Assembly: GCF_001418575.1 (NCBI RefSeq)
Contig: NZ_LIQR01000186.1
Location: 203 to 42,343, forward strand
Reading direction: 5' to 3'
Source: Peterkaempfera griseoplana
GTDB lineage: Bacteria > Actinomycetota > Actinomycetes > Streptomycetales > Streptomycetaceae
Length of the DNA stretch: 42,141 bases
Below the pieces are notes generated by a model. That model worked only from the letters and a program-made list of their open reading frames with translations, had not been told where the DNA came from and searched no databases. Made by a program: the position numbers and the translations under genes. Shown piece by piece: positions 8,213-36,527 of the stretch; position 1 is the stretch's first letter, and every line of letters starts with the position of its first letter.

Positions 8213-8634
8213 GGGGTCGCCGAGGTGCCGGACAGCTCGCCGCGAGGCTCCCGCACCGTGGCCGGGGCGTGCTGCGAGCGGCAGGGTCCGTACGACGGAG
8301 GCCAGCCGACGGCGTTCCGCCGAATGAGTCGTTTCAAGACCACCAGATGAGCCTGAACCGGGCGGACCGACCGGGCGGTCGCGGTGACGGTCGACGTCAC
8401 CTCGGACGGTCACCGACGAGATCCGTTGCACTCCCCCGGCCTGGTACCGGCGGCCCGCGTCCGCCCGGCGCTCGCCGACGTCAACGCCGGGGATCGGCCG
8501 CAGGACCGCCGGTTCCGCGGCGCGCCCGCCCAGCCCCCGCGGTAGCCGCACGGATCCGTACGCAGGACCCGGCGGCGACATGTCCCGTATGGTGGGTTTT
8601 ATGCGGCGTTCCGCGTGACGACGGGATCAGTGGG
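8213..8634. other. Non-coding leader between lacI and SpoIIE genes
   Basis: About 420 bp with no supported gene. It contains the operator-like site at 8325-8337 and, close to the SpoIIE start, a TATGGT box at 8588-8593. Frames running through it are arginine/proline-rich shadows. Confidence 0.5.
8325..8337. promoter_or_regulatory. Operator-like site C (TGAGTC-GT-TTCAA)
   Basis: TGAGTCGTTTCAA differs from the shared TGAATC-NN-TTCAA pattern of sites A and B at one non-spacer base. It lies 118 bp upstream of site B, a spacing that would allow looping, or it may mark the promoter of a lost plus-strand gene. Confidence 0.45.
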
Positions 8635-11160
8635 ATGTGCCCTTCGGTCAACGCATCCGCAGCCGGCTTCCGCACCGGTCTCCCCCGCGTCGGCCAGGTG
8701 GCGACATTCCTCTTGGACGGCAGGGGTGCCGTGATCGCGTGGAGCCCCGCGGCGGAGCAGCTGTTCGGCTACCGTACGGCCGAGGTCCTGGGCCGCGCGG
8801 CTGCGGAGTTGTGGCCCGAGACCTTTCCGGCCGTCCTGTCGCCGCCGCTCGGCGCCATGCGCACCGACGGCACCCCCCTCGGTGTCATCGCCCTCGCCGA
8901 CCGGCACGGCCGTCGACTGGACGCCACACTCCTGGTCTCCCCGCTCGCATCCGGCCACCCGGACGGCGACTTCACCGCGGTGGTCGTGTGGGTGCAGGGC
9001 CTGCTGCGGCAGGCGGAGGACCAGGCCATCCTGGACGGGCTGTTCACCCAGTCCCCGATCGGTGTGGCCGTGTACGACGCCGAGCTGCGCCTGGTCCGGA
9101 TCAACGCGGCCCTGGAGAGCATCCACGGGATCCGACAGGAGGAGGCGCTGGGCCGCCGGATCGGCGAGGTCCTCCCCGACGTGGACGCCGTGGCGGTCGA
9201 GCAGCGGCTCCGCAGCGTCCTGGAGACCGGTCTGCCGATCTTCAACGCCGTGCACCGCGGACGCACCCCCGCCGACCCGGACCGGGAGCACGTCTGGGAG
9301 GTCTCCTCCTTCGCGCTCACCGCCCCGGACGGCACGACTCTGGGTGTCACGGACGCCGTCATCGACATCACCGACCACTACTGGGCCCGCGAGCGCATGC
9401 TCCTGCTGGACGAGGCCGCCGCCCGGATCGGCACGACCCTGAACGTGACCCGGATCGCGGAGGAGCTCACCGACGTCCTCGTCCCGCAGCTCACCGAGTT
9501 CGCCGCGGTCGACCTCCTGGAGGGGGTGACGTCGGGCGCCGAACCGCAGCCGTCGGAGACCGGCCGCGACATCCTGCGCCGCGCGGCGTGCAAGGCCGCC
9601 GACCCGCGGCTGCTCCCGGGCCTCAAGCAGGTCGGTGAACTGCTGGACTTCCCGGAGGGTTCGCCCTACAACGAGTGCCTGCGCGACGGGCAACCCAGGC
9701 TGCTGCCGGTCGTCGACCCTGACGCCGACTGGCTGCGGAGCATCGCGAGCGAGGCCCGGGTCCGGTCCATGGTGGAGTACGGGGCGCGCTCGCTGATGGT
9801 GGTGCCGCTGCGCGCCCGCGATGCCGTCCTCGGCTTCGTGCACATGTACCGCACCTCCCAGGCCAACGCCTTCGAGTGGGACGACCTCGTGCTGGCCCAG
9901 GAGCTGGTCGCCCGCACCGCGGTCTGCATGGACAACGCCCGGCGGTACACCCGCGAGCACACCGCTGCGGTCACCCTCCACGAGAGCATGCTCCCGCGCA
10001 GCGTCCCCGACCAGAGCGCCGTCGACGTCGCGCACCACTTCGTTCCGACCCGCAAGCACGCCGGGGCGAGCGGCGACTGGTTCGACGTGATCCCGCTCTC
10101 CGGCGCCCGGGTCGCGCTGGTGGTCGGCAGCGTGCCGGGCACCGGCGTCCACGCGGCGGCGTGCATGGGGCAGATCTGCTCCGGGGTGCGTACTCTCGCG
10201 CAGCTCGACCTGGCGCCTGAGGAGCTGCTGGGGCGGCTCGACGAGATGGTGCCGCGCCTGGTCGAGCGGGAACTCGCCTCCGGATCCGCGCCCATCGTGG
10301 AGGGGCTGGTCGGCGCCACCTGCCTGTACGCCGTCTACGACCCCGTCTCGCGCCGCTGCGTCATGGCCAGCGCCGGGCACCCGCCGCCCGTCATCGTCCC
10401 TCCGCTGGGCGGGGCGCACTTCCCCGACCTGCCGTCCAACAAGCCGCTGGGCAAGGGCGACCCGGTGTTCGAGCCCCTGGAGATCGAGCTGGACGAGGGC
10501 AGCACCCTGCTCCTCTACACCGCAGGCCTGGTGCACGCCTGCGCGGCCGACAGCGGGGCGCGTGCCGGGCTGCGTACCGTCCTCACCGAGGACGACCGGC
10601 CGCTGGACGAGACCTGCCGGGCGGTGGCCGACGTCGTCGTCCCGCATCTGGCGGCCGAGGACGACCTGGCGCTGCTGCTCGCCAGGACCCGCTCGCTGGG
10701 TCCGGCCCGGGTCGTCACCTGGGACCTCCCCAGGGATCCCTCCGTCGTCTCGGAGGCCCGCGCCCTGCTGCTGCGCCAACTCGACCGGTGGGACCTGGGA
10801 CATCTGGCCTTCACCGCCGAGCTGATCGTCAGCGAACTGGTCACCAACGCCATCCGCTACGGCAGCGAGCCCCTGCGACTGCGCCTGATCCGCGATCGGA
10901 CACTGATCTGCGAGGTCAGCGACGCCAACAGCACCTCGCCGCACATCCGCCGGGCGGCCGACACCGACGAGGGGGGACGCGGGCTGTTCCTGGTCGCGCG
11001 GTGCTCCCACCGCTGGGGCGTGCGCTACCCCGCCACGGGCAAGATCATCTGGGCCGAGCAACTGCTCACCCCGGCCTGGGACGCCTTCGCGGCGGACGAC
11101 GGCGCCCCGGACGGACCGCACGCCCCCTGCGCGGGCGTACCCGACCTCGGCATTCTCTGA
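8635..11160 (+). CDS. PAS-PAS-GAF-SpoIIE-HATPase hybrid regulator, phosphatase motifs degenerate (copy 1)
   Basis: An 841-residue soluble signalling protein combining an RsbU/SpoIIE-type phosphatase domain with an RsbW-like ATPase domain; relatives act in partner switching on anti-sigma antagonists. Order: PAS about 15-125 (FLLDGRGAVIAWSPAAEQLF), second PAS about 135-245 ending VIDITDHYW, GAF about 255-430 ending VARTAVCMDNARRYTREH, SpoIIE about 445-685, HATPase about 695-820, then a short proline-rich tail. Of four expected acidic metal motifs, D481 (SGDWFD) and D676-D677 remain, but the GDVxGHG motif is GSVPGTG (S499) and the TDG motif is TAG (A630). The ATPase N-box ELIVSELVTNAIRYG (N738) and DEGGRGLFLV are intact. 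The start ATG 8635 has only a weak purine-rich leader. Probably not an active phosphatase; may act as kinase or binding protein. Confidence 0.92.
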   Translation: MCPSVNASAAGFRTGLPRVGQVATFLLDGRGAVIAWSPAAEQLFGYRTAEVLGRAAAELWPETFPAVLSPPLGAMRTDGTPLGVIALADRHGRRLDATLLVSPLASGHPDGDFTAVVVWVQGLLRQAEDQAILDGLFTQSPIGVAVYDAELRLVRINAALESIHGIRQEEALGRRIGEVLPDVDAVAVEQRLRSVLETGLPIFNAVHRGRTPADPDREHVWEVSSFALTAPDGTTLGVTDAVIDITDHYWARERMLLLDEAAARIGTTLNVTRIAEELTDVLVPQLTEFAAVDLLEGVTSGAEPQPSETGRDILRRAACKAADPRLLPGLKQVGELLDFPEGSPYNECLRDGQPRLLPVVDPDADWLRSIASEARVRSMVEYGARSLMVVPLRARDAVLGFVHMYRTSQANAFEWDDLVLAQELVARTAVCMDNARRYTREHTAAVTLHESMLPRSVPDQSAVDVAHHFVPTRKHAGASGDWFDVIPLSGARVALVVGSVPGTGVHAAACMGQICSGVRTLAQLDLAPEELLGRLDEMVPRLVERELASGSAPIVEGLVGATCLYAVYDPVSRRCVMASAGHPPPVIVPPLGGAHFPDLPSNKPLGKGDPVFEPLEIELDEGSTLLLYTAGLVHACAADSGARAGLRTVLTEDDRPLDETCRAVADVVVPHLAAEDDLALLLARTRSLGPARVVTWDLPRDPSVVSEARALLLRQLDRWDLGHLAFTAELIVSELVTNAIRYGSEPLRLRLIRDRTLICEVSDANSTSPHIRRAADTDEGGRGLFLVARCSHRWGVRYPATGKIIWAEQLLTPAWDAFAADDGAPDGPHAPCAGVPDLGIL

Positions 11161-15488: not shown

Positions 15489-15656
15489 GTGAACAGCGGC
15501 CAGAAGGCAACCGGTCCGGCGCCCGCGCCCGGCGCGGAACCGGCGGACGGCGGCGTCGCCGCACCCCGGCGGTGCCCCTCCCGCAGCGCCGAACGGAGCG
15601 GCGCACGGGCACCGCACGCCGGAACCCCCGGACGAAGCGATGGCGGCCCGGCCTAG
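15489..15656 (+). CDS. Small 55-residue ORF overlapping the start of the SpoIIE gene
   Basis: GTG 15489 has a near-perfect ribosome binding site, GAGGAGG, 6-7 bases upstream, much better than that of the downstream phosphatase gene. The peptide is hydrophilic, rich in Pro, Ala, Gly and Arg, with no recognisable domain. Its TAG stop (15654-15656) lies just inside the SpoIIE gene, whose ATG is at 15640, so the two overlap by 17 bases in different frames. This layout fits translational coupling. Alternatively a base error or real frameshift separates a true N-terminal extension from the phosphatase. Function unknown. Confidence 0.45.
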   Translation: MNSGQKATGPAPAPGAEPADGGVAAPRRCPSRSAERSGARAPHAGTPGRSDGGPA

Positions 15657-17874
15657 GGTTGCGTCCCCGCCCGGCACGGCGCCGGGTACCCGCGTTCCGG
15701 TGGACGCCGGCGCCCGGCCGCAGGCCGACGGCCGGGAGCAGACGGCACTCGCGGCCATGTTCGCGAGTTCCCCGGCGATCGTCGCCGTACTGTCCGGCCC
15801 CGACCATGTCCTGGTGGAGGCCAACCGGGCCCTGTACCGCGCACACGGCACAGCGGACGCCGACACGCTGCCGGGACGGCCGGTGGGCGACACACTGCCG
15901 GAACTCGTCCACCAGGGCATGCTCGGCCTGCTCGACCAGGTGTACCGCACCGGCGCACCCGTCGTCGTCCACGGCGCCCATGTGCTGCTCGGGCGGGGGC
16001 CGACGGCCCACGAGGGGTACTTCGACTTCACCCTGGAGGCGCACCGCGACCCGCTCGGCGGGATCACCGGCGTGATCTGCACCGCCGTGGACGTCACCAG
16101 GGAGCGCCGCGCGCGCCAACTCGCGGCCGAGCAGCACGCGCTGCTGGAGCAGATCGCCCGCAACGTTCCGCTGGGCGAGGTGCTGGAGGGCATGTGCCGC
16201 ACGATCGAGGGGCTCTCACCCCGGGTGCTGGTCTCGGTCCTGCTCATCGACGAGAACGGGCACCAGCTGCGGCACGGCGCCGCACCGAGCCTGCCCGACT
16301 TCTACAACCAGGCCATCGACGGCTCGGAGATCGGCCCTTGCGTGGGCTCCTGCGGCACCGCCGCCTACCGCCGGGCCGGTGTCATCGTCACCGACATCGC
16401 CCATGACGAGCTGTGGACGGACTTCCGGGAGCTGGCCCGGACGGCCAGGCTGGGCGCCTGCTGGTCCAACCCGATCATGTCGACCACCGGGGAGCTGCTG
16501 GGCACCTTCGCCTTCTACCACCGCACGCCCCGGACCCCCCGCGAGGAGGACCTGGACCTGTGCGCGGTCTTCGCCCGCACCGCCGCCCTGGCGATCGAGC
16601 GCGACCGCGCCGAGACGGCCCGGCGGGAGGCGCACGCCCGCGAGCAGGCCGCCGCCGCGGACCTGGCCTTCGTCCTGGAGACCAGCACCGCGGTCAGCCG
16701 GGAGCCCCGGTATCCGCAGAACCTGCAGCGTCTCGCCCGCCTGGCGGTGCCCGCGCTCGCCCCGGTCTGCCTCATCGACGTCCTCGCGGACGGTCACATC
16801 AGCCGGGTCGCCGTGGCGGTGTCGGACGACCTGCCGGAGGGCACCGAGGCGGCGCTGGCCGCACAGCCTCCCGATCTGCGGGCGGACAGCCCCGTGAGCC
16901 GGGTGATGGCCGGGGGCGTCCGGGAGATCGACCACGGGGCGTGGCCCAGGCCGGTGCCGGCGCTCCCCTGCACCGTCACCGGCTATGTCTGCGTCCCACT
17001 CACCGTGCGCGGGCGCACCTTCGGCACGCTGACCCTGGTCGCCACCACGGACAAACCCCTGGACGCCCGAGCCGTCGCCCTGGCCGAGGAACTCGCCCGT
17101 ACGGCGGCGGCCGGGGCCGACACCACTCGGCAGTATGCGCACCGCGCGCAGCTGGCGCGTGATCTGCAGTCCGGGCTGCTGCTGTCCGCCCTGCCGGACG
17201 TCCCGGGGGCGCACCTCTGCGCCTGCTACCGGCCCGCCGGCGAGGGGCTGGACATCGGTGGTGACTTCTACGACGTCTTCCCGCTGCCGGGCCGCCGCTG
17301 GGGGCTGGTCATCGGGGACGTCTGCGGGCGTGGCGCCCGCGCGGCCACCACCACGGCCCTGGTCCGCCACACGGCGCGGGCGGTGGCGCCGTTGCTGTCC
17401 GACCCGGTCGCGGTGGTGCGGGCGATCAACGACGCACTGCTCGGCCAGCCCGACGGGGAGGAGCGGTTCGTCACCCTGGTGTACGCGGCCCTGGAACCCG
17501 CTCCGGCCGGCCTCTCCGCCTGCCTGGTACGGGCGGGGCACCCCTCGCCGCTGCTGCGCCGCGGCGACGGCTCCGTCACGGTGTCCCTCGCGCCCGGCCA
17601 GCTGCTCGGGGTGGCGGCCGACCCGGTCCAGACGGCGGAGACGGTGCTGCTGCTCAGCGGTGAGGCGATCGTGCTGGTCACCGACGGCATCCTGGAGGCG
17701 CGGGACCGCAGCGGCGCCTTCTTCGGCGAGGAGCGCCTGGTCGAAGCCGTCCGGTCCGGCGGCGCGGCAGCCTCGGCCCGGCGGACCCTGGAGGCGATCA
17801 CCGGGGCCGTGGACGCCTTCAGCTACGGCGCCACCGACGACGACCAGGCAGCGGTGGTCCTCACGGTCCGCTGA
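15640..17874 (+). CDS. PAS-GAF-GAF-SpoIIE protein phosphatase, active site intact
   Basis: A 744-residue PPM-type serine/threonine phosphatase of the RsbU/SpoIIE group, expected to dephosphorylate an anti-sigma antagonist (STAS protein) in response to signals sensed by its PAS and GAF domains. Order: PAS about 35-150 (AMFASSPAIVAVLSGPDHVL to VICTAVDVTRERRA), GAF about 165-325 with IGPCVGSCGTAAYRR and CWSNPI, second GAF-like region about 345-495, SpoIIE about 505-744. All four expected acidic motifs are present: D542 (GGDFYD), D560 (GDVCGRG), D682 (VTDGILEARD) and D733-D735 (DDDQAAVVL). There is no HATPase domain, unlike the three hybrids. Start ATG 15640 has a poor ribosome binding site and overlaps a small upstream ORF, so translation may be coupled. 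No cognate sigma factor or STAS gene is nearby. Confidence 0.93.
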   Translation: MAARPRVASPPGTAPGTRVPVDAGARPQADGREQTALAAMFASSPAIVAVLSGPDHVLVEANRALYRAHGTADADTLPGRPVGDTLPELVHQGMLGLLDQVYRTGAPVVVHGAHVLLGRGPTAHEGYFDFTLEAHRDPLGGITGVICTAVDVTRERRARQLAAEQHALLEQIARNVPLGEVLEGMCRTIEGLSPRVLVSVLLIDENGHQLRHGAAPSLPDFYNQAIDGSEIGPCVGSCGTAAYRRAGVIVTDIAHDELWTDFRELARTARLGACWSNPIMSTTGELLGTFAFYHRTPRTPREEDLDLCAVFARTAALAIERDRAETARREAHAREQAAAADLAFVLETSTAVSREPRYPQNLQRLARLAVPALAPVCLIDVLADGHISRVAVAVSDDLPEGTEAALAAQPPDLRADSPVSRVMAGGVREIDHGAWPRPVPALPCTVTGYVCVPLTVRGRTFGTLTLVATTDKPLDARAVALAEELARTAAAGADTTRQYAHRAQLARDLQSGLLLSALPDVPGAHLCACYRPAGEGLDIGGDFYDVFPLPGRRWGLVIGDVCGRGARAATTTALVRHTARAVAPLLSDPVAVVRAINDALLGQPDGEERFVTLVYAALEPAPAGLSACLVRAGHPSPLLRRGDGSVTVSLAPGQLLGVAADPVQTAETVLLLSGEAIVLVTDGILEARDRSGAFFGEERLVEAVRSGGAAASARRTLEAITGAVDAFSYGATDDDQAAVVLTVR

Positions 17875-20705: not shown

Positions 20706-21545
20706 TCAGGGCGGCGCCGGCGTCCGGTGGCGGCGGACGACCAGGGCGGCGGCGTCGTCGTCGTGGCCGGTGAGATCCGCGACCTTCATCACCCGCGAGA
20801 CCATGGTCTCGGGGTCCGCGTCCAGGTCCGCGGTCACCACCTGCCGCACCCGCTCCAGCCCCTCGTCCAGGCAGAAGTGCGGCCCCTCCACCACCCCGTC
20901 GGTGACCATGACCAGGATGACCTCCTCCGAGGCGCCCATGTGGCCATGGATCACCGGGTACTGGGCGCCCTGCAGGATGCCCAGCGGCGGGCCGCAGGCG
21001 CCCAGCAGGGTGCCCGAGCAGCCGTCGGGTGTGGCCCAGACGGTGGGGACGTGCCCGGCGCGGGCGCCGGACAGGGCCGGGCCGGGGGTCGTCCCGATCC
21101 GCAGCAGGGTGCAGGTCGCGAAGAGGCCGCAGCCCAGTGCGACCAGCAGGTCATTGGCTGCGGAGAGCACCTCCCCGGGGTTCGCGGTGACGCCCCCGAC
21201 CGCACGCAGGGAGGCGCGGACCTGCCCCATGACGGCCACCGCGTCGACGTCGTGGCCCTGCACGTCGCCGATCACCACCCCGATGGAGCCGTCCGCCAGG
21301 GAGAAGGCGTCGTACCAGTCGCCGCCCACCTCCAGCCCGTTGCGGGCGGGCACGTACCGGGCGGCGAACTGCAGGCCCGGCAGGTCCGGCAGCTGCGGAG
21401 GGAGCATGTGGCGCTGCAGGGCCGTGGCCAGGTCGACCCTTGCCCTCTGCAGCTTGATCCGCTCCAGGGCCTGCTCGACCAGACTGCCGAGGGTGAGCAG
21501 GGTCTCCTCGGCCGTGTCCGGCACGCTGGGACGGCGTCGAGTCAT
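20706..21545 (-). CDS. Stand-alone SpoIIE-type protein phosphatase, active site intact
   Basis: A 279-residue PPM/SpoIIE phosphatase with a short N-terminal helical lead-in (SLVEQALERIKLQRARVDLATALQRHMLPP) and no sensory domain of its own. Metal motifs are intact: GGDWYDAF near residue 75, VVIGDVQGHD near 92, VTDGVVEG near 222, and GHDDDAAALVV near 263. The QRHMLPPQLPDLPG segment is the usual entry to RsbU-like catalytic domains. The third motif is followed by GPHFCLDEGLERVRQ. Start ATG 21545 has GGAGGGG upstream. It is transcribed toward the MASE1 gene and probably co-transcribed; the MASE1 protein could supply membrane sensing. Likely substrate: a phosphorylated anti-sigma antagonist, not present in this window. 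Confidence 0.93.
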   Translation of the reverse strand: MTRRRPSVPDTAEETLLTLGSLVEQALERIKLQRARVDLATALQRHMLPPQLPDLPGLQFAARYVPARNGLEVGGDWYDAFSLADGSIGVVIGDVQGHDVDAVAVMGQVRASLRAVGGVTANPGEVLSAANDLLVALGCGLFATCTLLRIGTTPGPALSGARAGHVPTVWATPDGCSGTLLGACGPPLGILQGAQYPVIHGHMGASEEVILVMVTDGVVEGPHFCLDEGLERVRQVVTADLDADPETMVSRVMKVADLTGHDDDAAALVVRRHRTPAPP

Positions 21546-21655: not shown

Positions 21656-23503
21656 TCAGCCGCCGGAGTCGAGCCTGAGCCGGGGGCGTTCCAGTTCGAA
21701 CCAGACGGCCAGGTCCAGGGCGCGTTCCAGTGCCGCGCGTTCAGCGGTGCCGACCAGGTGCTGTTCGGTGTCCGCGATCGACCGGAGCCGGTCGCGGTCC
21801 ATCAGCTCCAGGGCGGGACTGCGCCCGGCCGTCAGCAGCTCCCGGATCTGGGTCTGCAGCTCCTTGGTGTAGCCGGGGTCCTGGGTGGAGGGGTAGGGGC
21901 TCTTCACCCGCTGGAGGACCGAGGCCGGCAGCAGGTCCCGGACGGCGTGCCGCAGCAGGCTCTTCTCCCGGCCGTCGAAGGTCTTCGCCGACCAGGGGGT
22001 GTTGAAGACGTACTCCACCAGGCGGTGGTCGCAGAAGGGGACCCGCACCTCGAGGCCGGTGGCCATGCTCATCCGGTCCTTGCGGTCGAGCAGGATCCGG
22101 ACGAAGCCGGTGAGGTGCAGATGGCAGACCTCGCGCATGCGGCGTTCCATGCCGTCCTCCCCGTCCAGGCGCGGCACCCTGGCGAGGGCCTCCTGGTAGC
22201 GGCGGTCGAGGTAGCCGGGTACGTCGAGCAGCCGGGTCAGCCCGGGTTCCAGCACCGTGGTGCCGCTCAGGCCGTGCCGCAGCGCACTGGCCATCCAGGG
22301 GAAGGTTCCCGCGTCTCGAGCGGCGGGGTCGTGGAACCAGGGGTAGCCGCCGAACACCTCGTCCGCGGACTCTCCGGACAGTGCCACCGTGGAGTGCTCG
22401 CGGATCGCCCGGAAGAGCAGCAGCAGCGACTGGTCCATGTCGCCGAGGCCCAGCGGCAGATCCCTGGCCCGCACGGCGGCGGTCCGTACGGCCGGGTCGG
22501 CCAGCTCCTTGGCGTCCAGCACGATGTCGCGGTGGTCGGTGGCCGCATGCCGTGCCACCTCGTGGACGAAGGGGGTGTCCGGGGTGGCCCGCAGCTCGTC
22601 CTGGACGAAGTTCTCGGTCTGGCCGACGAAGTCCACCGAGAAGCTGCGCACGGTCTCCCGGCCCCGCAGTTGCCGGGCCGCGAGCGCGGTGACCGCGCTG
22701 GAGTCCAGGCCGCCGGAGAGCAGGATGCAGCGCGGTACGTCCGAGACCAGCTGCCGGCGGGTGATGTCCTCCAGGAGTTCCCGCACCCGGGCGACCGTGT
22801 CCTCCAGGGTGTCGGTGTGCTCCAGGGCCCGCAGCTGCCAGTAGGTGCGGGGGTGCCTCCCGCCGCGGTCGAAGGTCACCACGGTGCCGGGCTCGACCTC
22901 GTGCATGCCGGACCAGACGGCGTGACCCGGGGTCTTGGCCATGGAGAACAGCTCGCGCAGTCCCTCCAGGTCCACCTCGCGGGGTGTCTCCGGGTTCGCC
23001 AGGATCGCCTTGGGTTCGGAGCCGAAGAGGACACCGTCGGCGGTGGGGAAGTAGTAGAGCGGCTTGACGCCCATCCGGTCGCGGATCAGCACCAGCTGCT
23101 CGGTGCGGGTGTCCCAGACGGCGAAGGCGTACATGCCGTTGAGCCGCTCGGGCAGCCGGTCGCCCCACTCCAGGTAGCCGCGCAGCACCACCTCGGTGTC
23201 GCTGTCGGTGCGGAAGCGGTGGCCTCTGCGACGCAGTTCGTCACGGAGTTCCACGTAGTTGTAGACCTCGCCGGAGTAGACCAGCACCACCTCTCCGTCG
23301 GCGGTGCGCTCCGTCATGGGCTGGCCGCCCCCGGGGAGGTCGATGATGGCCAGGCGGCGGTGCCCCATGGCGGCGCGGCTGTCCAGCCAGAGCCCTTCCG
23401 CGTCCGGCCCGCGGCAGGCCATGGTGGCGGTCATCGCCTCAGCGGTGGCCCTCTCCTGCCGCAGGTCGCGTCGGTAGGACACCCAGCCGGCGATACCGCA
23501 CAT
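21656..23503 (-). CDS. asnB: Asparagine synthase (glutamine-hydrolysing)
   Basis: A 615-residue AsnB-type enzyme converting aspartate, ATP and glutamine to asparagine. ATG 23503 is chosen because it puts Cys at position 2 (MCGIAGWVSY), the N-terminal nucleophile of the glutaminase domain after Met removal, and AGGAG is 8 bases upstream; a GTG 9 bases earlier overlaps that site. The glutaminase domain shows MACRGPDAEGLW, GHRRLAIIDL, and SGEVYNYVELR. The synthetase domain carries the pyrophosphate loop CILLSGGLDSSAVTALAA near residue 260, VALSGESADEVFGGYPWF near 350, and DRKDRMSMATGLEVRVPFCD near 470. Length and motifs fit the actinobacterial primary-metabolism or cell-wall-amidating AsnB group. 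No peptide-synthesis genes adjoin it, so a housekeeping or stress role is more likely than secondary metabolism. Confidence 0.96.
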   Translation of the reverse strand: MCGIAGWVSYRRDLRQERATAEAMTATMACRGPDAEGLWLDSRAAMGHRRLAIIDLPGGGQPMTERTADGEVVLVYSGEVYNYVELRDELRRRGHRFRTDSDTEVVLRGYLEWGDRLPERLNGMYAFAVWDTRTEQLVLIRDRMGVKPLYYFPTADGVLFGSEPKAILANPETPREVDLEGLRELFSMAKTPGHAVWSGMHEVEPGTVVTFDRGGRHPRTYWQLRALEHTDTLEDTVARVRELLEDITRRQLVSDVPRCILLSGGLDSSAVTALAARQLRGRETVRSFSVDFVGQTENFVQDELRATPDTPFVHEVARHAATDHRDIVLDAKELADPAVRTAAVRARDLPLGLGDMDQSLLLLFRAIREHSTVALSGESADEVFGGYPWFHDPAARDAGTFPWMASALRHGLSGTTVLEPGLTRLLDVPGYLDRRYQEALARVPRLDGEDGMERRMREVCHLHLTGFVRILLDRKDRMSMATGLEVRVPFCDHRLVEYVFNTPWSAKTFDGREKSLLRHAVRDLLPASVLQRVKSPYPSTQDPGYTKELQTQIRELLTAGRSPALELMDRDRLRSIADTEQHLVGTAERAALERALDLAVWFELERPRLRLDSGG

Positions 23504-27798: not shown

Positions 27799-30258
27799 AT
27801 GGACAGAGAGCTCGGCGGCGTCGGCGGCCCCGCGGGCGGCCCGTCGCCCGACCCGTTCCAGGGTGCGCAGGCCGCCACCGCGATGCTGGACGCCCAGGGC
27901 ACCGTCGTCCGCTGGAGCACGGCGGCGGAGCAGCTGGTGGACCGCCCGGCCTCGGCGGTGCTGGGCCGCCCGGTGACCTCGCTGCTGGCCGGGGCGGGAC
28001 GGGGCCGTACCGAGGCGATGGTGGCGCAGCTGCTGGCGTCCGGGCAGCCCTGGCAGCGGGCCCTGCTGGTCCGCAGGGGGGACGGCCGGCTGCTCACCGT
28101 GACCGTGCGGGCGTTCCCCTCGATCGGCCCCGAGCCGGTACCGAGCTGGGTGCTGCTGGCCGCCCCGGCGGCGGAGGCCCGGCGCCGGGAGGAGGAGCAG
28201 GCCGTCCTGACGGCGCTGTTCACCGACTCCCCGGTGGGGCTGATGGTCTCCGACCTCAGACTGCGCTGCATCCGCCGCAATCCGGCGCTGGAGCAGATGA
28301 CGGGGGTCCCCGACGGCGAAGGCCTCGGCAGAAGGCTCGGCGAGTCGCTGCCGGAGGTCGACTCCCTCGCGGTGGAGACGGCGATGCGGGAGGTGCTGGA
28401 GACGGGGGTCCCGCAGCTGGACATCGTCCACCGGGGCCGCACCCCGGCCTTCCCCGACCAGGAGACCACCTGGTCGACCAGCCTCTTCCGGCTGACGGAC
28501 TCCCACGGCGGCGTCATCGGGGTCTGCCATCTGGTGGTGGACGTCACCGACCGCCAGCGGACCCTGGCGCGGGTGGCGCTGATCAACGAGGCCAGTCTGC
28601 GCATCGGCACCACCCTCGACGTGGGGCGGACGGCGCAGGAACTCGCCGACGTGGCGGCCCCGGCGCTCGCCGACACGGTGACCGTCGATCTGCTGGACTC
28701 GGTGCTGCAGGGCGAGGCGCCCTCGCCCGGTCCGGTGGGCGAGGACGTGACGCTCCGCCGCTGCGGCTACCGCTCCGACTGGAAGGGCCCGTCCCGGGCG
28801 GTGTGCGAGATCGGCGAACCGGCCCGCTTCTCGCGGTTCTCCCCGCAGGCACGCTGTATGACGGACCTTCAGGCGCGGCTGGTCGCGCTGTCGGAGGAGC
28901 CGCAGGACTGGCAGCTCGACGACCCCCGGCGGGCCGAGGCGATGGCCGAGGCGGGTGTGCACTCCCTGATCGCCGTTCCGCTGACCGCGCGTGACGTGCT
29001 GATGGGGGTGGCCACCTTCTACCGGTGGCGCAAGCCGTCCCCGTTCGACGACGAGGACCTCAGCCTGATCGCCGAACTTGCCGCACGGGCCTCGGTCTGC
29101 ATCGACAACGCCCGTCGCTACACCCGGGAGCACCGCGCCACACTGGCTCTGCAGCGCCGGATGCTGCCCAGCTCCTCTCCCCCGCTGACCGCCCTGGAGA
29201 CCGCCGGCCGGTACCAGCCCGCCGGGGAGAGGTCCGAGGTGGGCGGCGACTGGCTGGATGTGATCCCGCTGTCGGGTGCCCGGGTGGCGCTGGTGGTGGG
29301 CGACGTCCCCGGACACGGCTTCCAGGCCGCCGCCACCATGGGGCGGCTGCGTACCGCGGTGCACACCCTGGCCGATCTGGACCTGGCTCCCGACGAGCTG
29401 CTCACCCATCTGGACGATCTGGTCTCCCGCCTCACCGAGGAGGAGGACGAGGCCCTGCCCGCAGGCCTCAGCGAGGGCCCGGTGACCGGTGCCACCTGCC
29501 TGTTCGCGGTGTACGACCCCGCCGACCGGCGCTGCACCCTGGCCAGCGCCGGGCACTACCCGCCCGCGGTGGTGCACCCCGACGGCGAGGTCCGCTTCCC
29601 CGACCTGGCGCCCGGCCCGCCGCTGGGCCTGGGCGGGGTGCCCTTCGAGACCACGGAGCTGGAGCTGCCCGACCGCAGCCTGCTGGCGCTGTACACCAAC
29701 GGCCTGCTGCTGGCCAGGGACCGGGACATCGACAGGGGACTCGGGGAGCTGCGGCGGATCCTGGCCCGTCCGGAGCGTCCCCTGGAGGAGATCTGCGACC
29801 AGGTGTTCTCGGAGCTGCTGCCGTTCCGGCCGCCGGACGACGTCTCGCTGCTGATCGCCCGCACCCGGGTGCTCGGTGCGGACCGGGTCGCCGCCTGGGA
29901 CCTGCCGTCCGATCCCGCGATGGTGCTGGATGCCCGGACGCTGGCCACCGACAAGCTGGCCGACTGGGGCCTGACCGACATCCTGTTCACCGCCGAACTG
30001 GTGGTCAGTGAGCTGGTCACCAACGCGGTCCGCTACGGACGCCCGCCGATCCGGCTGCGGCTGATCCGTGACTCCGCGCTGATCTGCGAGGTCTCCGACG
30101 GCAGCAGCACCTCGCCGCATCTGCGGCGGGCCCGTCTCGACGACGAGGGGGGACGCGGTCTCTTCCTGATCGCGCAGCTGACCCAGCGCTGGGGCACCCG
30201 CTACTCGGGGACCGGCAAGACGATCTGGGCCGAGGTGCCGCTGACCCCGCTCGCCTGA
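27799..30258 (+). CDS. PAS-PAS-GAF-SpoIIE-HATPase hybrid regulator, one metal ligand changed (copy 2)
   Basis: An 819-residue paralogue of the proteins at 8635 and 33222. Order: PAS about 20-125, PAS about 135-250 (ALFTDSPVGLMVSDLRLRCI to VVDVTDRQ), GAF about 258-425 ending ARASVCIDNARRYTREH, SpoIIE about 440-685, HATPase about 690-815. It is the least degenerate of the three hybrids: D484 (GGDWLD), D502 (GDVPGHG) and D680-D681 (DDVSLLIART) are kept, but TDG is TNG (N634). The ATPase N-box ELVTNAVRYG (N742) and DEGGRGLFLI are intact. ATG 27799 has only GGACGG upstream. A GTG at 27768 with a better ribosome binding site is out of frame. Possibly weakly active as phosphatase; ATPase/kinase or binding activity likely. 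Confidence 0.93.
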   Translation: MDRELGGVGGPAGGPSPDPFQGAQAATAMLDAQGTVVRWSTAAEQLVDRPASAVLGRPVTSLLAGAGRGRTEAMVAQLLASGQPWQRALLVRRGDGRLLTVTVRAFPSIGPEPVPSWVLLAAPAAEARRREEEQAVLTALFTDSPVGLMVSDLRLRCIRRNPALEQMTGVPDGEGLGRRLGESLPEVDSLAVETAMREVLETGVPQLDIVHRGRTPAFPDQETTWSTSLFRLTDSHGGVIGVCHLVVDVTDRQRTLARVALINEASLRIGTTLDVGRTAQELADVAAPALADTVTVDLLDSVLQGEAPSPGPVGEDVTLRRCGYRSDWKGPSRAVCEIGEPARFSRFSPQARCMTDLQARLVALSEEPQDWQLDDPRRAEAMAEAGVHSLIAVPLTARDVLMGVATFYRWRKPSPFDDEDLSLIAELAARASVCIDNARRYTREHRATLALQRRMLPSSSPPLTALETAGRYQPAGERSEVGGDWLDVIPLSGARVALVVGDVPGHGFQAAATMGRLRTAVHTLADLDLAPDELLTHLDDLVSRLTEEEDEALPAGLSEGPVTGATCLFAVYDPADRRCTLASAGHYPPAVVHPDGEVRFPDLAPGPPLGLGGVPFETTELELPDRSLLALYTNGLLLARDRDIDRGLGELRRILARPERPLEEICDQVFSELLPFRPPDDVSLLIARTRVLGADRVAAWDLPSDPAMVLDARTLATDKLADWGLTDILFTAELVVSELVTNAVRYGRPPIRLRLIRDSALICEVSDGSSTSPHLRRARLDDEGGRGLFLIAQLTQRWGTRYSGTGKTIWAEVPLTPLA

Positions 30259-30340: not shown

Positions 30341-30733
30341 TCAGCGCTCCTCGCCGGTCTGCAGCAGCCGCTGCAGCAGCCGTTCGTCCTCGTCGGTCAG
30401 CTCGGAGACGAAGCGCGCCAGCACCGCCTGGCGGTCGGAGCCGCGCTCCAGCAGCGAGAACATCCGGCCCGCCGTGTCCGCGGCCTCGTCCCGCACCGGC
30501 TCCCAGGTGTAGCCGCGCCCCTCGCGACGCCGGGTCAGCCGGCCCTTGGCGTACAGGCGGGACATGATGGTCAGCACCGTCGTGTAGGCCAGCTCCCCGG
30601 GCAGCCGCTCCCCCACCTGAGCCGCGGTCAGGGGCGCTCGGGCCGCCCACAGCACGGCCATGACCTGGGCCTCCAACTCGCCCGCCGCCTTGCGGCCCGC
30701 TCTGCCGGGCTGCCGGCCGTGCCCGTCCGGCAC
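30341..30733 (-). CDS. BlaI/MecI/CopY-family repressor
   Basis: A 130-residue winged-helix repressor. GTG 30733 is preferred over an upstream ATG because AGGAGGAGG lies just before it. The DNA-binding domain reads LEAQVMAVLWAARAPLTAAQVGERL, then LAYTTVLTIMSRLYAKGRL with TRRREGRGYTWEPV, the typical BlaI wing. The C-terminal dimerisation helices include MFSLLERGSDRQAVLARFVSEL and DEDERLLQRLL. No BlaR-type membrane protease lies next to it in this window. It is divergent from a glycosyltransferase/deacetylase operon, and a CTACA-N3-TGTAG dyad sits between them, close to the TACTACA-type sites known for BlaI proteins. It may therefore control envelope modification rather than a beta-lactamase. 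Confidence 0.92.
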   Translation of the reverse strand: MPDGHGRQPGRAGRKAAGELEAQVMAVLWAARAPLTAAQVGERLPGELAYTTVLTIMSRLYAKGRLTRRREGRGYTWEPVRDEAADTAGRMFSLLERGSDRQAVLARFVSELTDEDERLLQRLLQTGEER

Positions 30734-30911
30734 CTCGCACCTCCTCCTGGTCCTCATGGCCCCGCCGCTCCGGGCGGGCGCCGCGTTCCCTCGTGGGGCA
30801 CACCCGTACCGGGGTGGGCCTGCGGGGGGACATCCAACGTACTACGGCCGTTCACCGGCCCGTCCTCGCGGGGCCGCGCGGGCCATGCCGGGGGTGGGGT
30901 CCGGCTTGCTA

Positions 30912-32321: not shown

Positions 32322-33073
32322 CCGCGGTCACCCCGCACCGCACCGTCTTCACCGCAGCGGCGGCGGCCGCCGCAGCCGCACTGGCCGTGCAGGCCGTCCC
32401 CGCCGTCTCCACCCTCGGGCCGCTGCGCAACCGGTGGATGCCCGGTCTCGCAGGTGTCGGACGCCCCGGCCATGTCGCGCTGACCTTCGACGACGGCCCC
32501 GACCCGATCTCCACCCCGCGTTTCCTGGAACTGCTGGAGAAGCGCGGGATCCGGGCGACCTTCTTCATGCTCGGCTCGATGCTCACCCTCGTCCCCGAAC
32601 TGGCCAGGGAGATCAGCGCCGCCGGGCACGAGATCGGCATCCACGGCTGGGCACACCGCCCCCTGCTGCTGCGCAGCCCCCGCGCCACTTACCACGACCT
32701 GGCCAGGGCCCGGGACGCGGTGGCGGAGACCACCGGCACGGTGCCCAGGCTCTTCCGTCCCCCGTACGGGGTGATGAGCACGGCCGCGCACCTCTCCGCC
32801 CGGCGCCTGGGGCTCACCCCGGTGCTGTGGACCAGCTGGGGCGAGGACTGGACCAGCCGGGCCACCCCCGTGTCGGTGTACGGCACCGTCACCCGGGATC
32901 TGCGCGGCGGCGGCACCGTCCTGCTGCACGACTCCGACTGCACCTCCGCACCCGCCGCCTGGCAGTCGGCACTGGGCGCACTGCCGGGCATCCTGGACCT
33001 GTGCGAGCAGCGGGGGTGGGAGGTCGGCCCGCTGCGCGACCACGGCGTCCCGGCGCTGCCGAGCCTGGCCTGA
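32318..33073 (+). CDS. Polysaccharide deacetylase (CE4/NodB family)
   Basis: A 251-residue metal-dependent deacetylase of carbohydrate esterase family 4, acting on N-acetyl groups of an extracellular or lipid-linked polysaccharide. An N-terminal hydrophobic segment (about residues 9-30, alanine-rich) is a signal or anchor. Catalytic motifs are in order: VALTFDDGPDPISTPRFLEL near 53 (DD pair), HEIGIHGWAHRPLLL near 105 (metal histidines), RLFRPPYGVM near 143, and TVLLHDSD near 203. ATG 32318 has GGGAGG upstream and overlaps the glycosyltransferase stop. The pair looks like a coupled unit that builds and deacetylates a glycolipid or wall glycan, probably under the divergent BlaI-type repressor. 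Exact substrate unknown. Confidence 0.93.
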   Translation: MTAVTPHRTVFTAAAAAAAAALAVQAVPAVSTLGPLRNRWMPGLAGVGRPGHVALTFDDGPDPISTPRFLELLEKRGIRATFFMLGSMLTLVPELAREISAAGHEIGIHGWAHRPLLLRSPRATYHDLARARDAVAETTGTVPRLFRPPYGVMSTAAHLSARRLGLTPVLWTSWGEDWTSRATPVSVYGTVTRDLRGGGTVLLHDSDCTSAPAAWQSALGALPGILDLCEQRGWEVGPLRDHGVPALPSLA

Positions 33074-33128
33074 CCGGCGCTCCCGGCCTCGGACGGCGGC
33101 CCGCCGGGGACGGCCCCCGGAGGTCCGG

Positions 33129-33170
33129 GCGCACCGCCCCGGCGGCGGCCGCGCCACCGGGGCGGTGCGC
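33129..33170. terminator. Strong terminator after the deacetylase gene
   Basis: GCGCACCGCCCCGG and CCGGGGCGGTGCGC form a perfect 14-bp stem with a 14-base loop, separating the glycosyltransferase operon from the next SpoIIE gene. Confidence 0.78.
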
Positions 33171-33221
33171 CTCCCACGGGGCTGCAGCCGAGTGGTGCGG
33201 GGCCCCGAATGGGTGTGACAT

Positions 33222-35690
33222 ATGGGCATGGGCGACACCGTGGTCCCCGAAACCGCCGGTGGCCTTCCCGAGCCGAGCGGCGATGCCTTCGCCGTCGTCG
33301 ACGGGCACGGTGCGCTGGCGGGCTGGAGCGTCGGTGCACAGCGGCTGCTCGGCTACCCGGCGGACGAGGTCCGGGGGCGCGGAGCGGCCTGGCTGCTGTA
33401 CCGCCCGTCGGACGCGGCAGGGCTGGTGCGGCGCGGCCGCAGCGCCCGGTCGAACCTGCTGGGGCCGGTGACCCTGCGCCACCGGGACGGCGGCGAGGTC
33501 GAGGCGGTGCTGTGGGTGCACCTCATGACCTCCCCGGCCGGGGAGCCGCAGTGGCTGCTCCAGGCGGCCGAGGCGGCGGCGGTCCGCCGGGCGGATCTGC
33601 GCCGCTCGTTGCTGCGGGGCCTGTTCACGGAGTCGCCCTTCATCATCGACGTCTTCGACTCGGAGCTGCGGCTGCTGGCGCAGAACGACTCGCAGCGCCG
33701 CGCCCAGGGGTTCGCCGAGGAGACCGTGGGGCGCACCATGCGGGAGGCGGCGCCCCCCGGCCTGCTGGACCTGGACGCGCTGGAGGAGCGCCAGCGGCGG
33801 GTGCTGGCCACCGGCGTCGCACAGATCGGCGCGGAGGTGCACGGCCGCGATCCGGCGGACCCGCAGCTGGAGACGGTCTGGTCGGAGAGCATCCTGCCGC
33901 TGCGCAGCAGCGCCGGGGAGATCGTGGCGCTGGCGCATCTGGTCGCCGACGTCACCGAGGAGGCCCGGGCGCGGGGGCGGCTGGCCCTGGTCAACGACGC
34001 CAGCGTCTGCATCGGCAGCACCCTCGACGTCCTGCGCACCGCACAGGAACTCGCCGACTTCGCCGTGCCGCGGTTCGCCGACTACGCCTATGTGAACCTG
34101 CTGGACGCGGTGTTCAGCGGCGGGGAGCCGGTCACCGGTCCGCCGCCCGCGGCGACGCCGCTGCGGCGGGCGGCGGAGTCGATGGTCGACAGCGGGCCGG
34201 AGACACGGCTGGTCGCCCTCGGCGAGATCGACCTCCTGGCCTCCCGGCCGGGCTCCCCCACGCTGCGGGCCCTGGTCGACGGCAAGCCCCGGCTGCTGAG
34301 CGGGGAGACCCTCGCCACCAGGTACCCGCCGTCCGACGAGCGGGGGGCGGCGCTGCGCAGCCACGGCGTCCACTCCCTGATCCTGGTGCCGATGCACGCG
34401 CGGGGGGCGGCCCTGGGCACGGCCATGTTCTTCAGGTTCCGGCGCACCCGCAACTTCGAGCCCGACGACGTGCTGCTGGCCCAGGAGGTCGTGGCACGCG
34501 CCGCCGTCTGCATCGACAACGCCTCGCGCTACACCCGGGAGCGGACCACCGCGCTGGCCCTGCAGCGGAGCCTGCAGTTGCAGCGGCTGCCGGCGCTGCG
34601 GACCCTGGACGCGGCGTCGCGCTATCTGCCGCCCGGGGGCCCCGCCGTCCTGGGCGGCGCCTGGTTCGACCTCATCCCGCTGTCCTGCGCCCGGGTCGCC
34701 CTGGTCGTCGGGGACACCGCCGGCGAGGGGGTCCACGCGGCGGTGGCGATGGGGCGGCTGCGCACCGCGGTGCGCACCTTCTCCGACCTCGACATGGCAC
34801 CCGACGAACTGCTCACCCATCTGAGCGACCTGGTGAAGCGCGCCGGGGACGGGCACGGCCTCGGCCCGGCCGCCGGGAGCGGGGAGACCACCTGCATGTA
34901 CGCGGTCTTCGACCCCATCTCGCAGCAGTGCGCGCTGGCGAGCGCCGGACACCCGTGGCCGGCGCTGGTGACGGCCGGCGGTGTGGAGTACCCCCGCCTC
35001 GCAGCGGGCGCCCCGCTGGGGGTCGACGGGGCCCCCTACGAGAGCTGCGAGATGACCCTGTCGCAGGGTGACCTGCTGGTGCTGCACTCGGCGGGGCTGC
35101 TGGCGACCGGGGACGGCCGGCCGGACGGTGACGGCGCGGACCGGCTCCGCGGGGCCCTCCGCGACGCCCGCGTACCGGCGTCCACCGCGCGGGAGACGGG
35201 CCGGACGGACCAGCTCGACAGGGTCTGCGACGCCCTGCTGCGGCGCCTGCTGCCGCAGCACCGGGTGGGCGATGTGGCGCTGCTGGTCACCCGGTCCCGC
35301 GGGCCGCAGGCGGACCGCCATGCCACCTGGGACGTACCGGCCGAACCGGAGGCGGTGGGGCGGGCCCGGACCCTGACGGGCGGCAAGCTGTCCGAGTGGG
35401 GCCTGGAGGAGCTGGAGTACACCGCCCAGCTGCTGGTCAGTGAGCTGGTCACCAATGCCGTCCGCTACGGCAGCCCGCCGATCCGGCTGCGGCTGATCCT
35501 CGACCGCCGGCTGATCTGCGAGGTGACCGACGGCAGCAGCACCTCGCCGCACGTACGGCGCGCCCTGAAGACGGACGAGGGCGGACGGGGGCTCTTCCTG
35601 GTCACCCAGCTGGCGGAACTGTGGGGCACCCGCTACCACGCCCGGGGCAAGTCCATCTGGGCGGAACTGCCCCTGCCCGCGGAGTCCTGA
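33222..35690 (+). CDS. PAS-PAS-GAF-SpoIIE-HATPase hybrid regulator, phosphatase motifs most degenerate (copy 3)
   Basis: An 822-residue paralogue with the same architecture: PAS about 15-120, PAS about 130-250 (GLFTESPFIIDVFDSELRLL to LVADVTEEAR), GAF about 258-440 ending ARAAVCIDNASRYTRER, SpoIIE about 455-690, HATPase about 695-820. The phosphatase site has lost several acidic positions: GGDWYD is GGAWFD (A480), TDG is SAG (A624), and the final DD is GD (G683-D684). Only D498 (GDTAGEG) and D684 remain. The ATPase part keeps ELVTNAVRYG (N745) and DEGGRGLFLV. ATG 33222 is followed by a second in-frame ATG at 33228; neither has a clear ribosome binding site. A catalytically dead phosphatase domain is the simplest reading; it may sense and bind rather than cut. 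Confidence 0.92.
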   Translation: MGMGDTVVPETAGGLPEPSGDAFAVVDGHGALAGWSVGAQRLLGYPADEVRGRGAAWLLYRPSDAAGLVRRGRSARSNLLGPVTLRHRDGGEVEAVLWVHLMTSPAGEPQWLLQAAEAAAVRRADLRRSLLRGLFTESPFIIDVFDSELRLLAQNDSQRRAQGFAEETVGRTMREAAPPGLLDLDALEERQRRVLATGVAQIGAEVHGRDPADPQLETVWSESILPLRSSAGEIVALAHLVADVTEEARARGRLALVNDASVCIGSTLDVLRTAQELADFAVPRFADYAYVNLLDAVFSGGEPVTGPPPAATPLRRAAESMVDSGPETRLVALGEIDLLASRPGSPTLRALVDGKPRLLSGETLATRYPPSDERGAALRSHGVHSLILVPMHARGAALGTAMFFRFRRTRNFEPDDVLLAQEVVARAAVCIDNASRYTRERTTALALQRSLQLQRLPALRTLDAASRYLPPGGPAVLGGAWFDLIPLSCARVALVVGDTAGEGVHAAVAMGRLRTAVRTFSDLDMAPDELLTHLSDLVKRAGDGHGLGPAAGSGETTCMYAVFDPISQQCALASAGHPWPALVTAGGVEYPRLAAGAPLGVDGAPYESCEMTLSQGDLLVLHSAGLLATGDGRPDGDGADRLRGALRDARVPASTARETGRTDQLDRVCDALLRRLLPQHRVGDVALLVTRSRGPQADRHATWDVPAEPEAVGRARTLTGGKLSEWGLEELEYTAQLLVSELVTNAVRYGSPPIRLRLILDRRLICEVTDGSSTSPHVRRALKTDEGGRGLFLVTQLAELWGTRYHARGKSIWAELPLPAES

Positions 35691-35695
35691 CCGCG

Positions 35696-35727
35696 CCGCT
35701 CCCCGGCGGCACCTGACCGGGGGGCGG
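35696..35727. terminator. Convergent terminator after SpoIIE copy 3
   Basis: CCGCTCCCCGG and CCGGGGGGCGG pair over 11 bp with one T-G wobble and a 10-base loop, in the 57-bp gap before the convergent phosphatase gene. Confidence 0.55.
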
Positions 35728-35747
35728 CGGGCGCGGGCGCCGCTGTG

Positions 35748-36527
35748 TCAGCCGCCGGCGGGCAGGACCAGGGCGGCCGTCAGCCCGTCGAGTTCGGCGG
35801 GGGTGAGGCCGTGCCGCAGCAGCCACTCCGCGCCACCGCCGAAGTCGCTGTGCAGGATCTCCAGGAAACGGAGCATCACCTCGGCGTCGGCGACCAGGTA
35901 GCGCCGTCCGGACGCGGTGAGCTGCCGGTACGAGGGCAGCGTCGCCAGCCGGGCCCGGATCCGCGCCACCCGCTGTGCGGTGAGGGCGTAGTCGGCGGCG
36001 ACGGCGTCGGCGGGCACCCCCACCGCGTCCAGCAGCAGGGCCGCCAGCACACCGGTGCGGTCCTTGCCGACGGCGCAGTGGAAGACCACCGCGTGCCGCT
36101 CGCCGTCGGCGACGATCCGCGCGGCACCGGTCAGCGTCTCGCCGCTGCCGGCCAGCAGCGCCCGGTAGAAGTCGACGAGGTCGCCGCCGGACCGCTGCGG
36201 CACCGCGTCGGCGCTCTGCGGCCGCGGGGTGCGGACGGGCAGGTTGACCCGGTGGACGGCGGCGGACGCCAGCAGCCCGTGCCCTTCGACGGCCGACTCC
36301 TGGCGGCTCCGCAGATCGATCACGGTCCGCAGCCGCAACCCGTCGACCAGCACCTCCACATCGGCGGCGGTGGCCTGCTGCGGGGTGCTCGCCCGGTAGA
36401 CGACGCCGCGCCGGGTGGTGCCGCCGCCGCGTACGGGGAGGCCTCCCAGGTCGCGGACGTTGTCGATCTCGGCGAACTCCACCCAGCGGGGCGCGTCCGC
36501 CCCCGACCCGTTCTCCACTGCTGCCAT
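35748..36527 (-). CDS. Tyrosine-protein phosphatase (MptpB/Y_phosphatase3-like)
   Basis: A 259-residue cysteine-based phosphatase. The P-loop VVFHCAVGKDRTGVLAALLL near residue 150 has the C-x5-R active site, with the KDR variant typical of the PtpB/lipid-phosphatase-like group, which can use phosphotyrosine, phosphoserine or phosphoinositides. The N-terminal DNVRDLGGLPVRGGGTTRRG near 23 and the RTVIDLRSRQE segment near 72 are also family hallmarks. ATG 36527 follows GGAGG. It stands alone, convergent with the third hybrid SpoIIE gene; the neighbourhood is rich in phospho-signalling, but no direct link can be shown. There is no signal peptide, so it is cytoplasmic or secreted by a non-Sec route. 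Confidence 0.92.
   Translation of the reverse strand: MAAVENGSGADAPRWVEFAEIDNVRDLGGLPVRGGGTTRRGVVYRASTPQQATAADVEVLVDGLRLRTVIDLRSRQESAVEGHGLLASAAVHRVNLPVRTPRPQSADAVPQRSGGDLVDFYRALLAGSGETLTGAARIVADGERHAVVFHCAVGKDRTGVLAALLLDAVGVPADAVAADYALTAQRVARIRARLATLPSYRQLTASGRRYLVADAEVMLRFLEILHSDFGGGAEWLLRHGLTPAELDGLTAALVLPAGG

Follow-up and report, generated by a model that had tools for sequence, protein, structure and literature searches.

We analyzed a gene in a 42,141-nucleotide stretch of the Peterkaempfera griseoplana genome (contig NZ_LIQR01000186.1; the entire stretch is hereafter called the window). The gene, referred to as copy 3 to distinguish it from two related genes of the window (copies 1 and 2), encodes a sensor–phosphatase–kinase protein in which the phosphatase domain of the PPM type is very likely inactive, judging from its sequence. 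Copy 3 is an uninterrupted open reading frame (ORF) of 822 amino acids. Pfam matches to PAS, PAS_4, GAF, SpoIIE (PF07228) and HATPase_c_2 were all above the cut-offs. The SpoIIE match covered residues 491–691 and scored 128.7 bits against a cut-off of 25, and the match to the RsbW/SpoIIAB-type HATPase family (PF13581) scored 36.8 bits against 27.4, placing the protein in both families. The N-terminal part was assigned to PAS, PAS_4 and GAF, and no receiver domain was among the matches. The HATPase residues E741, N745, D770, G788 and G790 were present; we take the Glu and Asn to represent the N-box, and the Asp and glycines the G-box. The guanine-plus-cytosine (GC) contents of codon positions 1, 2 and 3 were 77, 54 and 95%, a distribution that fits a coding frame in this very GC-rich genome. 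Thus, the full-length frame with healthy sensor and ATPase domains that was described in an initial annotation, made from the sequence alone, was confirmed. A scan of positions 32900–36500 identified no promoters or terminators, although such a scan is uninformative in sequence this rich in GC.

Metal ligands of the SpoIIE domain

The translation contained the motif changes described in the initial annotation, GGAWFD (A480), HSAG (A624) and VGDVALL (G683-D684), in addition to GDTAGEG (D498). The codons specifying A480, D498, A624, G683 and D684 were GCC, GAC, GCG, GGC and GAT, respectively. Excerpts of the structural study of Bacillus subtilis SpoIIE list Asp628, Asp746 and Asp795 as the ligands of Mn1, and state that Asp628, Asp610 and the carbonyl of Gly629 could hold a metal at a putative Mn2 site; only Mn1 was present in the crystals (PMC3517971). 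A profile of 15 domains from the P. griseoplana genome was aligned with the SpoIIE chain 3t91. Residues 43 (the Asp of SDGMGNG) and 161 (MMSDG) of this chain are 118 residues apart, as are residues 628 and 746, and residue 210, the first Asp of EDDMT, lies 167 residues past residue 43, the same spacing as from 628 to 795. The 18-residue spacing between A480 and D498 also matches that between 610 and 628. On this mapping copy 3 has Ala, Asp, Ala and Gly in place of D610, D628, D746 and D795 and so lacks the four-Asp set of SpoIIE/RsbU-type PPM phosphatases. It retains one of the four carboxylate ligands (D498), and its Mn1 site is without two of three carboxylates (A624 and G683).

The initial annotation had counted two remaining acidic ligands, D498 and D684. 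The first of these was retained; however, D795 aligned with the leading Asp of the DD motif, a place taken by G683 in copy 3, so that D684 is not a ligand. With one ligand left rather than two, a dead site is even better supported than the annotation had claimed. It had also been argued that loss of the first-motif Asp abolishes metal binding. As the SpoIIE crystals contained only Mn1, loss of the Asp at the A480 position need not have this effect by itself, but the combined ligand losses should abolish metal binding in copy 3.

All four ligands were conserved in 100% of 37 intact reference domains, 22 of which had been selected for having all four Asp and the other 15 listed as intact. From the 64 SpoIIE matches in the P. 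griseoplana genome the profile recovered 62 distinct ORFs; 8 of these had a gap at one or more of the four ligand columns and were left unscored. Among the 54 scorable ORFs, 39 had all four Asp and 15 were without at least one ligand (3 without one, 4 without two, 5 without three and 3 without all four). As only 8 of 54 ORFs lacked three or four ligands and the references were fully conserved, the pattern of copy 3 exceeds what chance would give. We conclude that copy 3 is very likely a pseudophosphatase; a dead phosphatase in a live gene, the reading proposed originally, remains the one that the sequence best supports.

Predicted fold

An AlphaFold2 model of copy 3, built with 24 sequences, had a mean predicted local distance difference test score of 83.8. 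It contained the strands and helices of the PPM domain, a long helix (residues 414–451) entering that domain, and the HATPase. The PPM part of the model matched SpoIIE (5ucg) with a Z score of 23.4, a root-mean-square deviation (rmsd) of 2.7 and 214 aligned residues, placing it in the PPM fold. Comparable matches were obtained with SiaA (6k4e; Z 24.1, rmsd 2.7, 235 aligned), Pseudomonas aeruginosa RssB (3f79; Z 22.4, rmsd 2.8, 224 aligned) and RsbX (3w40; Z 21.0, rmsd 2.8, 199 aligned). The PPM and HATPase domains together matched Rv1364c (3ke6) with a Z score of 27.9 over 329 residues and an rmsd of 11.8 across the two domains. A fold predicted in this way draws on the family and proves nothing about metal loss.

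Family members and the order of ligand losses

Among 297 genomes searched from the same GTDB family, 12 had matches at E <= 1e-215. One of the 12 is the P. griseoplana genome, in which copy 3 was accompanied by a paralogue on contig C525. The two proteins were 64% identical in the genome search and 61.9% identical by BLAST, and shared the A-D-A-G pattern. The other two genomes of the genus lacked a match at this threshold. Searches of further genera gave matches in 3 of 35, 3 of 70 and 9 of 392 genomes, sets that overlap with the 297. The resulting family comprised 23 members from scattered Streptomycetaceae, two of them from named genomes; L042 was excluded from the counts as apparently the same gene as L034, the contigs of both being 513034 long.

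The four ligand positions (480, 498, 624 and 683) read DDDD in L038, L039, L041 and L185, and DDND in L040. The other 18 members were changed further, the patterns including ADAG (copy 3 and its paralogue), IEEE, SEDE, ADGG, ADHN and ASGT; the mildest had lost a single ligand (L031, QDDD; L032, DDDE; L179, ADDD). Counting any non-Asp residue as a loss, although Glu or Asn may keep some metal binding, 19 of the 23 lacked at least one ligand Asp and 15 lacked at least two. The SpoIIE domain was nevertheless retained in an open frame in every member. Conservation in relatives, which had been proposed as a check, differed between the two alanines: A480 was common to 14 of 23 members and A624 only to L001, L004 and L183.

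In a rooted tree the intact members branched first and the 18 others formed one group with a support of 73, which suggests, without proving, a single origin of the degenerate group. In an earlier FastTree run the outgroup fell among the degenerate members, though weakly supported there, so the root is not firm. Relatives bearing the aspartates had been named in advance as a finding that would speak against a dead enzyme. Such relatives exist (L038, L039, L041 and L185); they diverge earliest within the family, however, indicating that the loss in copy 3 is derived rather than misread. Parsimony on the 23-tip clade required 5 steps at position 480, 2 at 498, 12 at 624 and 7 at 683, and none at 684, 483, E741, N745, D770, G788 or G790. 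The replacements differed between lineages (A, G, H, V, S, N or E at 624; G, E, N or T at 683), indicating repeated loss at these two positions. L032, which lies inside the degenerate group, has Asp at 480, reflecting either a reversal or several separate losses.

Selection on the degenerate domain

Conservation was scored in 17 degenerate members, among them copy 3 and its paralogue; L043 is outside this set and inside the 23-member counts. Asp was kept in 1 of 17 at position 480, in 4 at 624, in 7 at 683 and in all 17 at 684, while position 498 was Asp in 15 and Glu in 2. G478, G479, D483, L487, G497, R514, A575 and L599 were kept in 17 of 17. The losses thus fell selectively on the ligands, whereas no change was seen at D684, at the structural glycines or at the HATPase box residues examined. 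Some neighbors of the ligands were eroded as well (V499 kept in 9, G625 in 12 and T623 in 13 of 17).

Ratios of nonsynonymous to synonymous substitution rates (dN/dS) were estimated with pairwise codon models. For the SpoIIE domain of close degenerate pairs they were 0.13 (L033/L034), 0.19 (L180/L186), 0.07 (L182/L184) and 0.08 (L036/L184), each rejecting a value of 1; the HATPase values for the same pairs were 0.03, 0.01, 0.05 and 0.05. The intact pair L041/L185 gave 0.07 for both domains. The pairs L001/L044 and L039/L041 were not used because dS was saturated, and the SpoIIE value of 0.26 for L001/L004 is weak because dS exceeded 1. The median ratio of SpoIIE to HATPase root-to-tip distances was 2.74 in 17 degenerate tips compared to 0.98 in 5 intact or near-intact tips (Mann–Whitney p 0.002, although tips are not independent; L186 was omitted as a near-duplicate of L180). 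These sequence comparisons indicate that constraint on the PPM domain is relaxed in the degenerate members, yet clearly purifying.

Other degenerate SpoIIE proteins

The P. griseoplana genome (G000) is strongly expanded in PF07228 matches, with 64 compared to 39 and 36 in the sister species G001 and G049. A C-terminal HATPase was found in 14 of its 15 degenerate ORFs and in 14 of the 39 intact ones (Fisher p 1.6e-4, although paralogues are not independent). In G001, where 37 ORFs were recovered from the 39 matches and 2 were unscored, this association was not replicated (2 of 3 degenerate versus 13 of 32 intact, p 0.56). We therefore consider it a feature of the one genome and not a proven rule. 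The degenerate share also differed, 15 of 54 versus 3 of 35 (p 0.03).

Copies 1 and 2 have the same architecture as copy 3. In copy 1, Ser replaces the bridging ligand and Ala the Asp of the TDG motif, so its phosphatase is probably inactive too. The sole change in copy 2 is from TDG to TNG, and its phosphatase is possibly still active. Two further SpoIIE proteins of the window, 15640–17874 and 20706–21545 on the minus strand, have all four Asp.

A second degenerate SpoIIE–HATPase protein was found in all three genomes of the genus: L151 946–4602 (-) in P. griseoplana, L014 in G001 and L012 in G002. These proteins are 67–73% identical and have Ser at position 480; at position 683 L014, L012 and L151 have Gln, Gln or His. 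A third degenerate protein, with a D-S-E-D pattern and no HATPase match, occurs in two species of the genus (L161 1253–3232 (-) and L218 1981–4170 (-)). These two lines show that degeneration with retention is not unique to copy 3.

Genes near family members

Eleven loci of 19.5 kilobases (kb) around family members and the C525, L042, L043 and L044 stretches were compared with the window ORFs beyond position 23000. Apart from SpoIIE–HATPase genes and opposite-strand frames of such genes, the matches were ORFs resembling an alcohol dehydrogenase (L178, 33% identity) and Penicillinase_R (L169, 49%). The latter adjoins a family gene in L169 and is related to a Penicillinase_R family repressor at 30341–30757 (-) of the window. 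On the contig of the closest paralogue, a STAS protein (L118 2776–3069, +) reads MDCAGL where we presume the phosphorylatable Ser to lie, and it may not be phosphorylatable. A SpoIIE ORF on that contig (L118 5181–6698, -) follows downstream of the paralogue at a distance of 167 bases. It retains the first three motifs, but its frame stops before the DD motif, perhaps because of a frameshift in the draft sequence.

Table 1. Copy 3 and related features, with positions in the window
Feature	Position	Strand	Basis
Copy 3 gene, PAS-PAS_4-GAF-pseudo-SpoIIE(PPM)-HATPase, 822 aa (very likely pseudophosphatase)	33222..35690	+	Frame, Pfam, codon GC
PAS, aa 19-112	33276..33557	+	Pfam PF00989
PAS_4, aa 135-249	33624..33968	+	Pfam PF08448
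GAF, about aa 251-440	33972..34541	+	PF01590 at aa 342-431; GAF structures align about aa 247-439
Long helix into PPM domain, aa 414-451	34461..34574	+	AlphaFold2 model; among best-conserved segments in degenerate members
SpoIIE/PPM domain, about aa 455-696; fold predicted kept, metal ligands lost	34584..35309	+	PF07228, model, 5ucg Z 23.4, 3ke6 Z 27.9
A480, SpoIIE D610 position (putative Mn2 ligand), codon GCC	34659..34661	+	Alignment, PMC3517971
D498, SpoIIE D628 position (Mn1 and putative Mn2); sole carboxylate ligand kept	34713..34715	+	Alignment, PMC3517971
Switch helix alpha1, aa 504-522, kept	34731..34787	+	Model; mean pairwise identity 0.84 in 12 degenerate members
A624, SpoIIE D746 position (Mn1 ligand)	35091..35093	+	Alignment, PMC3517971
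G683, SpoIIE D795 position (Mn1 ligand)	35268..35270	+	Alignment, PMC3517971
D684, second Asp of DD pair, non-ligand, invariant in family	35271..35273	+	Alignment, family comparison
HATPase_c_2, aa 705-811	35334..35654	+	Pfam PF13581
N-box (presumed) E741-N745 (ELVTN); E741 and N745 invariant in family	35442..35456	+	Family comparison
Related copy 1, ligand pattern D-S-A-D, degenerate too	8269..11160	+	Ligand-column scoring
Related copy 2, ligand pattern D-D-N-D, mild	27799..30258	+	Pfam, ligand-column scoring

Comparison with known systems

The best solved match of copy 3, by sequence (E 6e-18) and by fold, was Rv1364c of Mycobacterium tuberculosis, which contains RsbU and RsbW domains and likewise has a sensor followed by a PPM domain and an RsbW-type HATPase. 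Unlike copy 3, Rv1364c has all four Asp in our alignments (GGDWFD, GDVVGHG, TDG and DD). It is reported to have both kinase and phosphatase activities, and also a C-terminal anti-sigma antagonist domain, which copy 3 does not have (PMC7693655). OsaC of Streptomyces coelicolor is described as likewise combining PAS/GAF and PPM domains; it is reported to modulate sigma-B, binding it via the kinase domain according to a review (PMC10117811, PMC12143880). The PPM fold is also shared with the B. subtilis SpoIIE and RsbU phosphatases (5ucg), from which copy 3 differs in having three of the four carboxylate metal ligands replaced.

According to excerpts of PMC12143880, RsbU-type phosphatases are driven through linker and switch helices, and Escherichia coli RssB is a PPM pseudophosphatase and stress regulator whose linker and switch helix alpha1 retain a part in regulation. 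RssB functions as a protease adaptor and carries a receiver domain together with a PPM domain truncated at its C terminus, whereas copy 3 has PAS/PAS/GAF sensors, a full-length PPM fold and a HATPase. Catalysis was lost by truncation in RssB and is predicted to have been lost by point changes in copy 3. Thus, a protein of this kind is known in principle; what is new is the full-length, point-mutated, HATPase-fused form occurring in a recurrent series. No report of degenerate SpoIIE–HATPase proteins in actinobacteria was found among the titles, abstract openings and selected passages covered in an open-literature collection.

A model for copy 3 function

We propose, with a probability of about 0.6, that copy 3 is a one-way sensor-kinase in which an RsbW-type HATPase acts as a STAS kinase and anti-sigma factor, and the dead PPM domain acts as a relay. 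The PAS/GAF signal would travel along the linker helix and the alpha1 switch helix of the PPM domain, and this domain, no longer catalytic, would serve the HATPase as a module for dimerization and relay. Its phosphatase being off, copy 3 would work in one direction, phosphorylating or holding a STAS partner and thereby restraining a sigma factor, while other SpoIIE proteins in the cell would carry out dephosphorylation. The loss would have arisen in a family with intact early branches, followed by repeated ligand losses under relaxed, not absent, selection.

The relay was inferred from the RsbU and RssB switch descriptions noted above (PMC12143880) and from the conservation of the linker and alpha1. 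In 12 degenerate members chosen from the 18, mean pairwise identity reached 0.84 in alpha1, 0.82 in the linker helix and 0.77 in the HATPase, whereas the SpoIIE domain as a whole had 0.58, its TDG segment 0.38 and residues 628–661 0.29. Strands 480–486 (0.91) and 492–498 (0.80) were also conserved, whereas switch helix alpha2 was not well kept (0.66). In 10 other chosen members the values were 0.71 (alpha1), 0.66 (linker), 0.62 (HATPase), 0.61 (SpoIIE), 0.73 (TDG segment) and 0.42 (628–661).

Several points weigh against this model. The comparison set is more diverse than the tight degenerate group, so the raw identities cannot be compared directly and what matters is how they vary from segment to segment. 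The linker and alpha1 may also be conserved simply because folding and dimerization require them. Kinase activity and sigma-factor binding are ascribed to copy 3 from its family alone. No shared operon was found in the compared family loci and window ORFs beyond 23000. Moreover, among the matches listed for the 18 genomes searched, none was a STAS partner beside a family member, the nearest of those listed being about 15 kb away (G236).

A different explanation is that the sensors and the HATPase are the targets of selection and that the dead PPM domain is tolerated as a slowly decaying spacer. The faster evolution of SpoIIE relative to HATPase among degenerate members, the poor conservation of the TDG segment and residues 628–661, and the lineage-specific replacements of D624 and D683 are what such a passenger would display. 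However, a passenger does not readily account for the dN/dS values of 0.07–0.19 in close degenerate pairs, for structural invariants kept in 16–17 of 17 members at most positions outside the ligand motifs, or for an open frame throughout the family, and we regard this explanation as unlikely.

The dead domain might instead dock phosphorylated STAS proteins without releasing the phosphate, shielding them from active phosphatases. A fold predicted intact with catalysis predicted lost is the situation of a substrate-trapping mutant, and competition for few partners is plausible in a genome with 64 SpoIIE matches and far fewer STAS_2 (11) and STAS (10) matches. A docking face should be kept, though, and residues 628–661 and the 545–555 loop are among the least conserved parts of the domain, which makes a trap improbable. 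It is more improbable still that copy 3 is a weak or altered metal enzyme in which D498 and main-chain or nearby groups hold a metal and support low or different activity. Retention of an acidic residue at the bridging position (Asp in 15 and Glu in 2 of 17) would fit such an enzyme, but D498 lies at the foot of the switch, where a structural reason suffices for its retention, and the Mn1 positions (A624, G683) and the Mn2 position (A480) are occupied by Ala or Gly. Finally, although the draft assembly comprises 802 contigs, we rejected an assembly error or recent pseudogene, as the initial annotation had done for the latter, because the 822-residue frame is open with 95% GC at third codon positions, a paralogue at 62–64% identity on a separate contig has the same A-D-A-G pattern, and degenerate relatives occur in other genera.

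The one-way sensor-kinase model may extend beyond copy 3, although we consider this tentative and rather less likely than not to hold. Sensor-phosphatase-kinases of the Streptomycetaceae would repeatedly become one-way sensor-kinases, the catalytic site being knocked out and the switch kept, such that many off-signals compete for few STAS proteins. If so, the P. griseoplana genome would be an extreme case: 15 of its 54 scorable SpoIIE domains are degenerate, and a HATPase is fused to 14 of the 15. Counts of SpoIIE domains overstate the number of active phosphatases, as this same share misses at least one metal ligand here. The family forms a natural series from intact to fully degenerate members, which allows one to ask what segments of the PPM domain transmit a signal without catalysis, and whether actinomycetes make one-way sigma-factor brakes from two-way switches.

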